From the NCBI GenBank assembly GCA_009703455.1, contig WLGB01000008.1, positions 1 to 41,960 on the forward strand: a DNA stretch of 41,960 bases, in the 5' to 3' direction. Below, one piece after another: positions 8,789-17,078 of the stretch. The number at the start of each line of letters is the position of its first letter. Within the stretch, counting starts at the first letter, position 1. The translations under genes and the position numbers were made by a program. The stretch comes from Actinomycetota bacterium (lineage in GTDB: Bacteria > Actinomycetota > Actinomycetes > Actinomycetales > Microbacteriaceae). The notes under the pieces are model-generated. The model was not told the DNA's origin and did no database searches. It saw only the letters and a list, made by a program, of their open reading frames with translations.

Positions 8789-11185
8789 ATGGCCAAAGAA
8801 CAAATCGATAAAGTTCCTGAGCGAATCTTTGACATCGACCTTTCCAAGGAGATGGAGGATTCGTTCCTTGAGTACTCTTACTCCGTTATTTACTCCAGGG
8901 CTTTGCCTGACGCCAGAGATGGGCTAAAGCCAGTCCATAGGCGCATCGTTTACCAAATGGGTGAGATGGGGCTTCGTCCCGACCGTGGGCATGTAAAGTC
9001 TGCTCGTGTCACCGGTGAGGTTATGGGAAAGCTTCACCCTCACGGCGATAGTGCAATCTACGATGCTCTGGTTCGCATGGCCCAACCATTTTCATTACGC
9101 GTTCCTCTTATAGACGGACATGGAAACTTCGGCTCCCTAGACGACGGCCCAGCCGCAGCTCGCTACACAGAGGTTCGGTTATCGGCGGCTGCCCTTGTCA
9201 TGAACGAAGGCTTGAGTGAGGACGTCGTTGACTTCAAACCCAACTATGACGCTCAGCTATCCGAACCCGAGGTGTTACCGGCTGCTTTTCCTAATCTGCT
9301 AGTAAATGGGGCTTCCGGTATCGCCGTAGGCATGGCAACCAATATGCCGCCGCATAACATGAGAGAAGTCGTCAAGGCCGCCGTTTACCTTCTCAGAACA
9401 CCAAAGGCCACGCTCGATGACTTAATGGCAATCGTCCCGGCACCTGATTTTCCAAACGGTGGAATCATCATGGTTGGAGAGGGCATTAAGGAAGCTTACG
9501 AAACTGGCCGAGGATCTTTCAAGACCAGGGCGCGAGTAAGCGTTGAGTCCGTTGCCCCAAGGAAGCTTGGATTGGTGGTGACTGAACTTCCCTACCTAGT
9601 AGGGCCAGAGAAAGTTATCGAAAAGATTAAGGAGGGCGTTAACTCCAAGAAGCTGCAGGGTATTTCTGACGTTATTGATCTAACCGACCGCACCAATGGT
9701 CTCAAGTTGATTATTGAGTTAAAAACTGGATTTGACCCTCAAGTGGTGCTCGATCTGTTGTATCGCTATACGCCAATGGAAGATAGCTTCGGCATCAACA
9801 ACGTTGCCTTGGTTGACGGACAGCCTCAAACTCTTGGGCTAAGAGACTTACTGGGCGTGTACTTAGCTCACCGAATTATCGTTATTAGACGTCGAAGTGA
9901 GAATCGTTTAGGTAAAAGGCAAGCAAGGCTTCATTTGGTTGAAGGAATGCTCCTTGCGATTGTTGGCATTGACGAGGTTATCCAGATAATCCGTAGCTCG
10001 GAGGAAGTCCAAGAAGCTAAAACCAAACTAATGGTCAAATTCAAATTGAGTGACATTCAGGCTGAATACATCCTTGAGCTTCGCCTGCGAAGACTCACAA
10101 AGTTTTCCAAGCTAGAGCTTGAAAATGAGAAGAAGCAGCTTTTGGTCGAAATTGCTGAGCTTGAAAAGATTCTAAAGAGCGACAAGATACTAAAGGATCT
10201 TGTCGCTACCGAGCTCGAAGAGGTAGCAAAAAACTACGGAGATGACCGAAGAACTTCTCTTCAGGCCGAAGGTGAGCAAGCCATTGTCCCGGCGTCTACC
10301 AAGAAACTAGTTAATGCTGAGCTCACCGACTCCCCCTCGGCAATAACTCTAACCCCAGCGGGCAGAGTGTTTAGGTCTGAAGACAGCAAGGAGCCAGCGT
10401 CTAGGAAAGACGGGTACCGAAATTGGTTTGCCACGACAACTAGAAGTGATGTTGTGTTTGTGACAGATTTGGGAAGAATGCTCCGCACTCACGTTGGTGA
10501 CATCCCAGTCGGTGGCTACGCAATGCATAACTCTGGAACGGCATCAGCGGAATTTCTAGGACTGGGAAAGAAGGAGCGGGTGCTTGGCGTGTTCCCAGTT
10601 GACGAAAAAGTTGTTGTCGCACTTGGGACAACCTCCGGAATCGTAAAGCGAGTTTCTCTCGACTTGCCGCAGAAGCCTGATTTTTCATGCATAAATTTGA
10701 AAGATGGAGACAAGCTTGTCGGTGCAGCTATTGCTTCAGATACCGATGAGCTGGTTTTCATCACCAGCGACGCCCAGCTACTTCGCTTTGACGCCAAGGC
10801 TGTTAGGCCACAAGGCATAAACGGAGCGGGGATAGCGGGAATCAAAACCGAGGGTGAAGTTATCTACTTCGGAGTTATAAAGCCCAAGGAGAAGAACGTA
10901 GTCCTTACTATCGCCAATAGCTCCGCATCTTTGCCGGGAACAGACGGTGGTGGGATGAAAGTTTCGAAGCTTGCCGAGTTCCCAAAAAAGGGCCGAGCAA
11001 CCGGCGGCGTGAGATGCCAAAAGTTTATTAGAGGACAAAATCAAATTGTTTTGGGCTATGTAGGACCTGAAAGTTTCCAGCTTTTGGACTCCAAAGGAAA
11101 GGTAATCGCCATGGACTATGAACTTCAAAAACGTGATGCCTCAGGAGCTGTTGCTCCAGCCATTAGCTACATCGGCCGAAGTTAG
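8789..11185 (+). CDS. parC: type IIA DNA topoisomerase subunit A (topoisomerase IV/gyrase A-like)
   Basis: 798 aa; [63 protein letters not shown] (catalytic Tyr), [20 protein letters not shown]. ParC versus GyrA assignment rests on context. Confidence 0.9.
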
Positions 11186-13263
11186 GCGTCAATTCTCTCG
11201 CGCTCAAGGATGTCAGCCGAATCTATGATGAAATCGCGGCGCGGGCCTACTTCATTACCCATAAGAAGCTCAAAGACTTTCTCGGCAGCCTCAGCGTCTT
11301 TTACTGTCACTCTTCTAAGGGCTCGTTTTGATCGGTCCATGGTTGTTTCAGCTAACTGTTCGGCATCCATCTCACCAAGACCCTTATATCGCTGAATTGG
11401 CTCTTGGTAGCTCTTTTTGGCTGTCTTTAGCTTTGACAATAATTTTTCTAGCTCGGCCTGCGAATAGGTGTAGATGTGCTCATTTGACTTCGACCCTGGA
11501 TTGATTACTGTCACCCGGTGCAGCGGAGGAACGGCAGCGTAGACACGACCAGCTTCAACCAACGGTCTCATATATCGGAAAAACAAGGTAAGCAACAATG
11601 TTCGAATGTGAGCGCCATCAACGTCAGCATCCGACATCAGGATTATTTTGCCGTAGCGTGCGGCTTCTAACTCAAAGCTCCTACCAGAACCTGCTCCGAT
11701 CACCTGAATAATCGATGCGCACTCGGTGTTAGAAAGCATGTCAGCCACCGATGCCTTTTGAACATTCAGAATCTTTCCACGAATTGGAAGTAGGGCTTGA
11801 TACTCGCTGTTTCGAGCAAGCTTGGCGGTACCAAGCGCGGAGTCACCCTCGACGATAAAAAGTTCAGAAACTTCGGTCTCCGAAGTTCTACAGTCAACCA
11901 ACTTGCTGGGTAGCGAAGAGCTCTCTAGGGCATTCTTGCGACGCTGAGTTTCCTTGTGGCTGCGAGCAGACACCCTTGCTTTCGTTTCGGCAACGATTTT
12001 TTCCAGAACCAGTGCGGACTGCGTCTTATCGTCACGTTTGGTGGATTTCAGTCGTTCGTTCAAGCGCTTGGCGACAATTGCCGAGACGATGTTTTTTACA
12101 GCTGGTGTTCCTAAGATTTCTTTGGTTTGACCTTCAAACTGTGGCTCCGCAAGTCTGACTGCAACAACAGCCGTGAGACCGGCAAGAATGTCCTCCTTCT
12201 CCACTTTGTCATTTCCGAGTTTAAGTTTTCTGGAGTTGGCATCAATCTCAGCGCGAATTGCCTTGACCGCACCTTGTTCAAAACCGGAGACGTGTGTTCC
12301 GCCTTTGGGGGTAGAAATTACGTTCACGAAAGACCTGAAGTTGGTCTCGTAGCCAGTCCCCCAGCGAAGCGCGATGTCGACCTCGCAGTTTCTGGTGACC
12401 TCGGTTGAAACCATGTTGCCTTTTTTATCTAGGACGGGGACTGTCTCAGTGAACTCGGCATCACCGCGCAGTCGCCAGACGGACGTGACTGCCGTGTCTG
12501 GAGCCAAAAAGCTAACAAACTCTGAGATGCCCCCTTCGAATTTAAATTCCTGTTTCGACGCCTTAGCGCCGCGCTTGTCGCTGACGCTAATCAAAAATCC
12601 GGGTACCAGGAAAGCTGTTTGCCTCGCTCTATCCTCAAGCTCCTTAAGGTCAAAGGATGTTTCCTTTACGAAAATCTGTGGGTCTGGCCAGTATCGAACT
12701 CGAGTTCCAGTCTTGTTCTTGGCAACTTTTCCCAGGACCTGGAGTTCACTCTTTTTTAGGAAGGGCTTAAAGCTGCTGGCTGGCCCAATTTCCTTTTTGT
12801 CATCAAAAATCCCGGGCTCCCCGCGCCGAAATGACATCGCGTAAGTTTGACCATTTCGGTCTACTTCGACGTCAAGCCTCTCCGAAAGAGCGTTTACAAC
12901 CGACGCGCCAACACCGTGCAAACCGCCGGAAGCTGCATATGATCCGGATCCGAACTTTCCACCGGCATGGAGTTTTGTGAAAACCACCTCGACGCCAGAC
13001 AGTCCCGTTTTGGGTTCAATATCAACTGGGACACCTCGGCCATCGTCCTCCACAGTAACGCTGCCGTCTTTGTGGAGCTCGATGGAGACTTTTTTACCAT
13101 GCCCGGCAAGAGCTTCATCCACGCTGTTGTCGATGATTTCCCATAGGCAGTGCATGAGACCTCGACCATCTGTCGAACCGATGTACATGCCCGGACGCTT
13201 ACGAACAGCCTCTAAGCCCTCTAGGACCGATAGGTGCCTTGCCGAATAGTCTTCATTTGCCAC
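11182..13263 (-). CDS. parE: type IIA DNA topoisomerase subunit B (topoisomerase IV/gyrase B-like)
   Basis: 693 aa; [98 protein letters not shown]. Confidence 0.95.
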
Positions 13264-13407: not shown

Positions 13408-13620
13408 ATGCAACCAGTTGAAGCAACCGAGCAGAATCCAGGCGGCACCTTGAAAGCGGCAGACCGCTGCGATGTTTGTGGAGCCCAGGCTTACATTCGG
13501 GTCTCCCTTGCCACCGGAGAGTTGTTGTTTTGTGCCCACCACGGCAAGGCCAACAAGGAAAAACTAGAACCTATTGCAAAGGGTTGGTTAGACGAAACAG
13601 ACAAGCTTCTAGCGCGCTAG
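13408..13620 (+). CDS. small zinc-binding-like protein (DUF7455 family)
   Basis: 70 aa; DRCDVCGAQAYIRVSLATGELLFCAHHG, conserved actinobacterial small protein near parE and sigA. Confidence 0.8.
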   Translation: MQPVEATEQNPGGTLKAADRCDVCGAQAYIRVSLATGELLFCAHHGKANKEKLEPIAKGWLDETDKLLAR

Positions 13621-14352
13621 GCGCTGGCTTAGTTCAATTCGTGCCCTTGTGGCATAACTATCTGCCTTCTCGGCTTCTTTACTTTCCTGGCGATAGCTAA
13701 ACCGGGACTTCTTGCTAACTAAATCAAGGAATTGATCTGCCAGGTGTGGGTTAAGTGGCAGCAGCGGACCATTCAACCTCGAAGCCATTAGATTGCCCGC
13801 AATCAGTCCTTCACTGGGCCTTAGTCCTGCAAAAGACATAGAACTATTACCGAAACCCGCTTTTAGTTGAATCAGCGGATGTACTCCCTCGAAAAGCTCA
13901 ATCTCAGCCGAGTGGTTTGCGTAACCAGTCGTGAGATTATCGAAGTCGTCAAAACCAAAGCATTCCGCAGAAGCGCGTTCTTTTGTTCTGACACTTCTGG
14001 ATGGGAAAATTCCCGATCCTGTAATCAGCTTTCCGTCCAAAAGCTGAATACTCTCCCCGAGAATTTCCCAACCCAACCCAAGGGCAAAAAACGGTACACC
14101 TTCTGAAGCCAACTCGCGTAAACGACCCTGTTGGTCCCCTAGACGCTCAAGAGCCTCCAAGGCACCGGCTAAGGTTCCAGAACCGATAAAAACTGCATCT
14201 ATGTTTTCTGGGATAGAGGAAGAACCGTCAAAGACCACTACCCTAGCCTCAATGCCAGACCATTGAAGACGCTTCACTAGGCAGTCAAGGTTCCCTGTCT
14301 CGCCATTTAGTCCAAGCTGTTGTGGAAAAAGATGCAAAAAGGTGACTGTCAT
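13609..14352 (-). CDS. gatD: GatD-like class-I glutamine amidotransferase homologue, apparently lacking catalytic Cys and His
   Basis: 247 aa; GatD scaffold (HLFPQQLGLNGETGNLDCLVKRLQWSGIEARVV, GYANHSAEIELFEG, AGFGNS, NGPLLPLNPHLADQFL); ATGA overlap with murT. Active-site positions differ (see findings). Confidence 0.8.
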   Translation of the reverse strand: MTVTFLHLFPQQLGLNGETGNLDCLVKRLQWSGIEARVVVFDGSSSIPENIDAVFIGSGTLAGALEALERLGDQQGRLRELASEGVPFFALGLGWEILGESIQLLDGKLITGSGIFPSRSVRTKERASAECFGFDDFDNLTTGYANHSAEIELFEGVHPLIQLKAGFGNSSMSFAGLRPSEGLIAGNLMASRLNGPLLPLNPHLADQFLDLVSKKSRFSYRQESKEAEKADSYATRARIELSQRLAR

Positions 14353-15614
14353 TTTCCACTTTCCAAATCCAGATAACCCATCAGTTTTCTAATAGCCATC
14401 ATCTGCTCGTAGTTGGTGAGCAAAGTTCCGCGCTTACCGTTCTCTTTTAGGAAGCGTACGTATTCGCTCAATGCCTTTTTACTGTCGGGCTGGACATTGG
14501 AAACTGGAATTCCTGCATAGCTAAGTCTTGTGGCCCAGTGCCAGGCACGTGAGCCGGAAATAGTGCGCACGGCAGAAATTCGCGACAAATCAATATCATA
14601 AATCCATGAAGGGTCGGGGGTTCCTTCGTCCATGGCAATCCAGATTTCAGTCTCGGGATTCTCCATGGCAACTAAAGTCGCCCGCAGGCTGGCCGGGTTT
14701 TTCATCATAAGGATCTGAATTTCCACCCCGAGATACTTTGCAATTTCACCGCGGCCATAAACAGTTTCTTGGCCTGCGATAGCGCTGCTAGCAGCGGACA
14801 CATCGAATGATTCATCAAGAATTTGCTTGGCGACTGCAAACGCTAAAGCGGTGTCAATTGCGAAGTGCAGGCCCTTGCCAGGTAGCTGAACCTGGAACGT
14901 GTCATCTCCAAGGGCTAGCAGGGCAACCCCATCGACTTCGTCCAGAACTTGAACAGCAACGGGAATCGAATTTACCGCTTCGCCCTTTCCGAATCTTGGA
15001 GCCGCCAAAGCCCCAACTGGCCACTTAGATAGGGCTTTTTCGGAGACTGAAACTTGCACCACCTGCTTATCGACTAGTTCAAGTGCCAGGTCCACAAGAT
15101 TTGCATCCGAGCCGTTAATAACCACGCCATGCGTTGCGGCTGCAGCAGCCGAATGCAACATTGAGTAAACACGATCTGGTTCGAAAAAACGATTTAGCTG
15201 GTCAATTTGAATATTTGTCAGTACTACCCAGCTAGGGGCTATAAAGGGAGAAAGAACTTGGCCATAGGCTTCATCTACTTCCAGGACCGCAACATCGGCA
15301 CTTAGATTCCCGCGCCACGAAACTTGTCCAATCACTGCCGAGCCGATGCCCTGTGGCATGTTTCCACCAGAAGGGTTGCTGAACACCTCTAACCCCTGAG
15401 AGGCCAAGGTGCCGGTGATCAAAGCAGTTGTAGTGCTTTTGCCATTGGATCCAGAAACAAAAATTGCTCCGTGGGCGAGTGAGCCAAGAGTCTTTTGTAT
15501 TAGTTTTGGCTCAATCATCAGTGCAATTCGCCCTGGCAGTGCTGAACCACCGCCTCGCAGTTTGGCCACAACACGAATTGCTTTGCCAATTAGAACTGCA
15601 AGAAAGAGCCTCAC
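14349..15614 (-). CDS. murT: MurT-like Mur ligase family protein without zinc ribbon
   Basis: 421 aa; FVSGSNGKSTTTALITG P-loop, NPSGGNMPQGI, LEVDEAYGQ, VVLTNIQIDQLNRF, ILMMKNPASLRATL, and C-terminal DUF1727-like PDPSWIYDIDLSRI. Confidence 0.85.
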   Translation of the reverse strand: MRLFLAVLIGKAIRVVAKLRGGGSALPGRIALMIEPKLIQKTLGSLAHGAIFVSGSNGKSTTTALITGTLASQGLEVFSNPSGGNMPQGIGSAVIGQVSWRGNLSADVAVLEVDEAYGQVLSPFIAPSWVVLTNIQIDQLNRFFEPDRVYSMLHSAAAAATHGVVINGSDANLVDLALELVDKQVVQVSVSEKALSKWPVGALAAPRFGKGEAVNSIPVAVQVLDEVDGVALLALGDDTFQVQLPGKGLHFAIDTALAFAVAKQILDESFDVSAASSAIAGQETVYGRGEIAKYLGVEIQILMMKNPASLRATLVAMENPETEIWIAMDEGTPDPSWIYDIDLSRISAVRTISGSRAWHWATRLSYAGIPVSNVQPDSKKALSEYVRFLKENGKRGTLLTNYEQMMAIRKLMGYLDLESGK

Positions 15615-15620
15615 GAGTAG

Positions 15621-17078
15621 CTACTGGTCTAGATAGTCACGCAGCATTTGGGAGCGTGACGGGTGCCTCAGTTTAGACATGGTCTTGGACTCTATCTGCC
15701 TGATTCGCTCACGAGTGACACCAAACTCTTCACCGATTTGGTCTAGGGTCTTCTGAACGCCGTCGCCAAGGCCAAAGCGGGATTTAATAACGCCGGCTTC
15801 CCTAGGGTGGAGCGACTGAAGAATGCGCTCTAGTTCCCGCTGCAACATGGTGAAACCCACTGCATCAGCAGGAACTACAGCCTCGGTATCTTCGATTAGA
15901 TCTCCGAACTCGCTGTCACCGTCCTCGCCAAGCGGTGTTGAAAGTGAAATCGGTTCGCGTCCGTACTTCTGAACCTCAACAACTTTCTCTGGAGTCATGT
16001 CGAGTTCGCGGGCTAATTCTTCTGGTGTGGGCTCGCGACCCAGATCCTGAAGCAACTGGCGTTGAACACGCGCAAGTTTGTTGATTACCTCGACCATGTG
16101 AACTGGAATACGAATTGTTCGAGCCTGGTCGGCCATTGCACGAGTAATAGCCTGTCTAATCCACCAGGTTGCGTAGGTGGAGAACTTGTAGCCCTTGGTG
16201 TAGTCAAACTTTTCAACCGCACGGATCAGGCCTAGGTTACCTTCCTGGATTAAGTCAAGAAATTGCATTCCTCTGCCTGTGTAGCGCTTGGCAAGAGACA
16301 CCACTAGACGAAGGTTTGCTTCCAGAAGGTGGCTCTTAGCTTTCTGCCCGTCCTTGACCACCCAACGAAGATCTCTTTCCATGTCCTTGGCAAGTTTTCT
16401 TTTCCCGGCGAGTTTTTCCTCTGCGAACAAACCAGCTTCAATGCGCTTTGCTAACTCAACTTCAAGCTCGGCGTTTAGCAACGCAACTTTTCCGATTTGC
16501 TTAAGGTAGTCCTTTACAGGATCAGCTGTTGCTCCTGTGATGGTTGTGCTCTGGGTAGGGATGTCGTCTTCGTCGCTGTTTGAAAGCACAAAACCGCCAC
16601 CGGGAACTACTACTTCTTCAACTTCTTCGGCAGCAGGAGTTTCGACTTCAACGGAAGTAATGTCAACTGACTCCGCAACATCGGCAACGATGTCTTCTAC
16701 AGACTCCAACTCATCAACATCGTCTAAATCTTCTTCATCATCGTCTAGAGCTTTTCCATTTGCGCTGCCCTTGGTGCCTTTACCTTTTGGTTCTTTCTTG
16801 GAAACCTTGGATGCCGGTCCAGTAGAGCCCTTCGAGGACTTGATGTTTTTCGCACTAGCGCTTAACTTTGCAGCTTTGGATGCAGGGGTGGCCTTTGCGG
16901 ATTTTGCAGTCGGCTTTGCCGAAGGCTTTGCGGAGGCTTTTGATTTTGCGGACACCTTAGACGTTGTCTTAGTGGTCTTAGCAACAGGCTTGGCAACGGA
17001 ATTCTTCTTGGTTTTGGGCTGGCTTTTACCACCCGCGACGCGGGATTCCTTCTTTGCAGCTGCCGGTGCTTTTGCCAC
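15621..17078 (-). CDS. sigA: primary sigma factor RpoD/SigA/HrdB
   Basis: 485 aa; [107 protein letters not shown]-terminal [28 protein letters not shown] start preceded by GAGAGGA. Confidence 0.97.

Follow-up and report, generated by a model that had tools for sequence, protein, structure and literature searches.

A MurT/GatD-like gene pair lies between sigA and gyrB

The window, which is the whole stretch of 41,960 nucleotides analyzed here, comes from the genome of a Rhodoluna, a bacterium of fresh water (G000; 1.17 Mb, 85% complete). On its minus strand, a slot bordered upstream by sigA (15621..17078) and downstream by a gyrB/parE-like gene (11182..13263) holds two adjacent genes, also on the minus strand. 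The first (14349..15614) has a GTG start and encodes a MurT-like Mur ligase of 421 aa with the Pfam domains PF08353 (MurT_C) and PF08245 (Mur_ligase_M); the second (13609..14352) has an ATG start and encodes a GatD-like protein of 247 aa with the class I glutaminase fold (PF07685, GATase_3). The murT stop and the gatD start overlap in an ATGA on the minus strand (14349..14352), an arrangement of translational coupling. The Pfam matches of both proteins are above the curated cut-offs and, having the MurT_C and Mur ligase middle domains, a GATase_3 partner and adjacent genes, the pair belongs by homology to the MurT/GatD family; the NCBIfam models were matched far under their equivalog cut-offs (57 of 450 bits for GatD and 115 of 800 for MurT). 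The nearest solved structures are the GatD/MurT of S. aureus and S. pneumoniae (PDB relatives of MurT: 6fqb, 6gs2). The AlphaFold model of the window GatD had a pLDDT of 95.5 and matched S. aureus GatD (6gs2) in Foldseek with a TM of 0.87, and that of the window MurT had a pLDDT of 90.8.

The catalytic core of the window MurT is intact. It retains the VDEA motif, the P-loop GSNGKSTT (15429..15452, minus strand), with a clade-typical GKS instead of GKT, and the Asp of the DPSW motif, found here as DPSWIYD (14595..14615, minus strand) and kept by every MurT of the dead pairs (65/65) and of the canonical pairs (43/43); in the segment NPSGGNMPQG (15348..15377, minus strand) a Gln typical of the clade takes the place of the Arg of canonical actinobacterial MurT. 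As for GatD, alignment to the S. aureus protein places Gly92 (codon GGG, 14077..14079, minus strand) at the position of the catalytic Cys94 and Asn194 (codon AAT, 13771..13773, minus strand) at that of the catalytic His189, both residues needed for glutaminase function thus being replaced. Since Gly at Cys94 is the same change as in the C94G mutant of S. aureus, in which Muench et al. 2012 (PMC3266927) found lipid II amidation abolished, we call the window GatD dead, judging by its sequence, and the two genes a dead pair. A first-pass annotation had already described a dead GatD beside an intact MurT at this place, and both open reading frames as well as both substitutions agree with that description. 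It had also taken a "ribbon-less" MurT as a marker, a point that had to be given up: the Cys4 zinc-ribbon insertion is missing from the window MurT and also from almost every canonical actinobacterial MurT in the comparison, and its absence in part of the Actinobacteria was already noted by Morlot et al. 2018 (PMC6085368). Ribbon absence is not diagnostic because it is ordinary among canonical actinobacterial MurTs, and we dropped it as part of the anomaly.

Loss of the glutaminase active site is shared by a clade of Microbacteriaceae

Gene pairs were found by profile search in a sample of 120 Microbacteriaceae genomes, the window genome included. As Pfam PF08353 by itself does not detect every member of the dead clade (it was unmatched in 36/120 genomes), it was replaced by an in-house profile, A1, which leaves 23/120 without MurT. 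The census gave 77 genomes with dead pairs, 7 with pairs of another kind (type C, described below), 11 with a canonical pair alone, 2 with odd pairs and 23 with no pair; dead and canonical pairs occur together in two genomes. Among the named genera with dead pairs are Clavibacter, Rathayibacter, Plantibacter, Cryobacterium, Leifsonia, Subtercola, Agromyces and Okibacterium, and Rhodoluna lacicola (G010, L025), of the same genus as the window genome, also has a dead pair, with Ala at the Cys position. No dead-type MurT was found outside Microbacteriaceae (family f1) in a 248-genome sample of the order. As for gene position, 75/78 dead pairs lie directly behind sigA, as do all type C pairs (7/7) but none of the canonical ones (0/13), and gyrB forms the other border of the dead-pair slot. 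A 0.93 Mb genome (L076/L301), presumably that of Tropheryma whipplei, has its dead pair directly behind sigA as well, and its wall type could be read from that pair.

In the tree, Cys94 is absent from all 65 GatDs of one fully supported Microbacteriaceae clade, of which 41 keep the catalytic His, and in 65/65 of the partner MurTs the P-loop Lys and the E, DE, R and D349-equivalent residues are conserved; in canonical pairs Cys and His are both present in 43/43, 30 of them from other families. Among 15 close dead pairs dN/dS was 0.11-0.31 for GatD and 0.04-0.18 for MurT; being well under 1 in 15/15 comparisons, it indicates that the dead active site is under purifying selection. Clade-wide conservation and these values led us to reject chance or decay as the cause of the Cys loss. 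They support the view, on sequence grounds, that the loss of glutaminase was ancestral and has been selectively maintained next to an intact ligase. A decaying pseudogene product in a relic operon would go along with the further pocket residues or segments missing from several dead-clade GatDs, and we consider it very unlikely in view of the dN/dS values, of a reading frame that stays open throughout in streamlined genomes of 0.9-1.4 Mb which have retained the pair, and of a loss that runs through the family and has the active site as its focus.

A CofE-like ligase occupies the same slot in genomes lacking the pair

We considered whether a divergent MurT had gone undetected in the slot of the pair-less genomes; profile searches of the slot ORFs were negative, and a CofE-like ligase of 230 aa (PF01996) was found there instead, the slot being empty in others (CofE-slot loci: L118-L139, L176, L180, L185, L197, L214, L215, L217, L218 and L234). 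Often an ATP-grasp protein (PF14397) is encoded in the CofE slot as well, and several genomes have there a gene for a diaminobutyrate transaminase or for an alanine-racemase-like protein. CofE-like proteins occur in 17/120 genomes of the family, 16 of the 17 lacking MurT, so that overlap is limited to one genome in 120 (Fisher p=1e-13), namely G053, where an odd MurT/GatD pair adjoins the CofE-like gene (38% identity). For 50 named genomes the counts were 41 with MurT, 9 with CofE, none with both and none with neither (p=4e-10), the CofE genera including Microbacterium, Humibacter and Rhodoglobus, to which Agromyces seonyuensis is added. CofE thus accounts for 16/23 pair-less family genomes, and 7/120 have neither system. 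Moreover, five genera hold the MurT and the CofE solution in different species and never in one genome (g7, g9 and g12 in the family sample, g78, taken to be Agromyces from an identical CofE position, and g84 in the order sample); genera with both states were counted rather than events because the species tree built from sigA-region proteins is poorly resolved.

Like the dead pair, this protein, related to F420-0:glutamyl ligase, would be an amide ligase without glutaminase; it sits in the same slot and replaces the pair between congeners. Unlike the pair, it has an unrelated fold and no partner subunit and often stands beside the ATP-grasp protein. Replacement in the same slot marks a shared position in a pathway more surely than an identical reaction, and the mutual exclusivity could also arise from functional complementarity within one pathway; the argument from CofE reaches the pair at two removes and takes replacement in one slot as a sign of one reaction.

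CofE-AsnB fusions in other families of the order

Beyond Microbacteriaceae, the CofE domain (36-48% identical) forms the C-terminus of an AsnB/LtsA-like protein of ~900 aa with GATase_6/7 and Asn_synthase domains, encoded at loci L288-L295, L312-L341 and L344-L355. In the order sample MurT was present in 0/21 genomes carrying the fusion against 77/229 (p=1.5e-4). Renibacterium salmoninarum is presumably among the carriers, and locus L342 is one that we take to be from Micrococcus luteus NCTC 2665. Both organisms have a modified D-Glu alpha-carboxyl: M. luteus bears glycine there, as known since the biochemistry of the 1960s, and Renibacterium bears D-Ala-amide. In the protein of the probable M. 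luteus (L342:6942-8633) the CofE domain is intact and the AsnB part is degenerate, with no Pfam match, a congener (L343) being alike, and in the probable Renibacterium protein both parts are intact. These sequences fit a division of labor in which the CofE domain would add an amino acid and the AsnB part would then amidate it, and the decayed AsnB of the probable M. luteus agrees with its non-amidated alpha-glycine. A further carrier of the fusion is Intrasporangium calvum (G320), a group-A organism whose D-Glu alpha-carboxyl bears Gly as a side substituent (PMC3035309). Three AsnB-CofE fusions lack the SGGLDS motif of Asn synthase (L282 of G130, L279 of G203 and L283 of G308), their congeners keeping it, and loss of this motif may separate glycine species from glycine-amide species.

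Peptidoglycan type and proposed function

In group-B peptidoglycan the interpeptide bridge starts at D-Glu. This wall type defines a large family, to which belong plant pathogens, Clavibacter among them, and many bacteria of plants, soil and fresh water. Besides Rhodoluna and Subtercola, the other named Microbacteriaceae genera are likewise known for B-type peptidoglycan. The first-pass annotation had presumed a group-B wall for the window organism, which holds at the level of the genus: the peptidoglycan of R. lacicola MWH-Ta8 is of group B, type B2beta, and yields D-Ala-D-Dab and Gly-D-Glu peptides (PMC4156110). That of Subtercola is of type B2gamma (PMC5945732).

MurT and CofE are both ligases that activate an acceptor carboxyl, and in Microbacteriaceae both are found without an ammonia supply, GatD being dead and CofE free of AsnB; as both lack it, ligation of an amino acid to the D-Glu alpha-carboxyl is their simplest common reading. 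We propose, with a probability of about 0.6, that the dead pair is a repurposed MurT/GatD ligating an amino acid of the group-B bridge to the D-Glu alpha-carboxyl, with GatD in a structural role. MurT would use ATP to activate the D-Glu alpha-carboxyl of the peptidoglycan precursor as an acyl phosphate; GatD, no longer a maker of ammonia, would be an obligatory structural subunit that possibly gates the substrate; and the nucleophile would be an amino acid that opens the interpeptide bridge or makes up the whole of it; in Rhodoluna and the B2gamma genera the donor would be D-2,4-diaminobutyrate (D-Dab). We infer the ligation of an amino acid to the D-Glu alpha-carboxyl from the replacement in the slot and from the chemotypes associated with CofE; which donor is used and what GatD does are likewise inferred. 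To a wider scheme we would give even odds: MurT/dead-GatD and the CofE-like protein may be interchangeable amino-acid ligases acting on the D-Glu alpha-carboxyl, the sigA-gyrB slot a site where genes for the group-B bridge are swapped, and CofE-AsnB the maker of the alpha-glycine or alpha-amino-acid-amide of Micrococcus, Renibacterium and Intrasporangium.

Alternatively, the pair may still amidate D-Glu to D-isoglutamine, MurT taking free ammonium and GatD acting only as a stabilising scaffold, which would be in line with the intact active-site residues of MurT and with the many amidotransferases that accept ammonia in place of glutamine. It would likewise be compatible with Leucobacter, whose cross-link is of type B with Dab (PMC4804768) and whose genomes (17 named ones) carry their canonical pairs, intact, outside the slot, which is empty, and contain neither a dead pair nor CofE; the neighbours of the canonical pairs in Leucobacter and in G024 were unremarkable. 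Amidation by free ammonium leaves unexplained, however, both the restriction of the dead pair to a group-B family and its exclusivity with a glutaminase-less CofE whose relatives occur where the D-Glu alpha-carboxyl carries an amino acid, and we regard it as improbable.

The Leucobacter genomes also bear on what had been claimed before. The argument that an amidating pair would block group-B cross-linking fails on them, since a type B wall and an intact canonical pair go together there (PMC4804768). The suggested correlation of the dead pair with the group-B chemotype stands insofar as the pair was confined to Microbacteriaceae among 248 genomes of the order, and breaks down at Leucobacter, which has type B without it. 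A universal group-B enzyme was rejected in the light of the CofE genomes, Leucobacter and the 7/120 family genomes with neither system: presence in all group-B organisms, save where an equivalent takes its place, does not extend to Leucobacter and these seven, which leaves the dead pair, at most, as one group-B solution among several. The reinterpretation of the pair as an amino-acid ligase, put forward in the first-pass annotation, gains from the maintained loss of glutaminase, the group-B genus and the replacement by CofE in the slot; as the sole route to group B it is contradicted by Leucobacter, the CofE genomes and the seven genomes just mentioned.

The existence of group-B walls without the dead pair, in Leucobacter and in those seven genomes, also favors a different acceptor or product, in which the pair would ligate an amino acid other than the bridge residue, as a side substituent of D-Glu or on another carboxyl (e.g., on the bridge acid), another enzyme building the bridge; the alpha-Gly that is a side substituent in a group-A organism bearing a CofE domain (PMC3035309) would point in the same direction. 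On the other hand, the D-Glu alpha-carboxyl is the very attachment site of the bridge in group B, which leaves little room for a separate substituent, and genes for the bridge acid (racemase-like, Dab transaminase) share the slot in some genomes. We think such a reaction unlikely, and prefer ligation of the bridge amino acid.

Relation to known ligases

The lipid II isoglutaminyl synthase MurT/GatD of S. aureus and S. pneumoniae shares with the dead pair the fold, the murT-gatD gene order, the catalytic residues of MurT and the class I glutaminase fold; the dead pair differs in that its GatD is without Cys94 and His189, its genes lie beside sigA and use of glutamine is not expected. Compared with canonical MurT, that of the dead clade has GKS for GKT, NPSGANLPQ for NPTGSNxxR and KNPxS for KNPxG. 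The proposed reaction would follow the logic of MurC-MurF and Mpl, in which an ATP-activated precursor carboxyl is joined to an amino acid, whereas enzymes of the MurT branch, which are two-subunit complexes without the N-terminal UDP-binding domain, normally add ammonia. The AsnB/LtsA-CofE fusions of Micrococcaceae and relatives resemble the dead pair in being exclusive with MurT in the sampled order and in having hosts with a modified D-Glu alpha-carboxyl; they differ in being a single chain that retains class II glutaminase and Asn synthase domains, probably to amidate the added residue.

In the literature searched we found no enzyme described as forming the bond from D-Glu to the bridge in group B, likewise none for the alpha-glycine of M. 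luteus, and no prior description of CofE or AsnB in peptidoglycan together with F420. The dead-GatD MurT pair and the CofE-like ligase are concrete candidates for the group-B bridge bond and for the M. luteus alpha-glycine; if this is true, enzymes would be assigned to a wall modification known chemically for more than half a century, and the pair would show clearly how loss of the ammonia supply can make an amino-acid ligase out of a glutamine amidotransferase.

Other MurT/GatD pairs in the family

In the type C pairs (L015-L020, L063 and L231:13968-16039) MurT often has the Cys4 ribbon and the catalytic Asp is changed to Asn or Met, GatD reading THNALE at the Cys site; the ATP-grasp protein is also present in 4/7 type C genomes. 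Two highly divergent MurT/GatD pairs are located away from sigA (L308 of G053 and L309 of G005). A second, canonical-type MurT elsewhere in the genome accompanies the dead pair of the slot in L304 (Leifsonia virtsii), G054 and L305 (G408/G065), genomes that lend themselves to telling the two functions apart. Finally, a MAG titled "Acidobacteria bacterium G2_35" (L232) contains a Microbacteriaceae sigA with murT and gatD in the slot; it is probably mislabelled, its contig being equal in length to one of the family genome G065.
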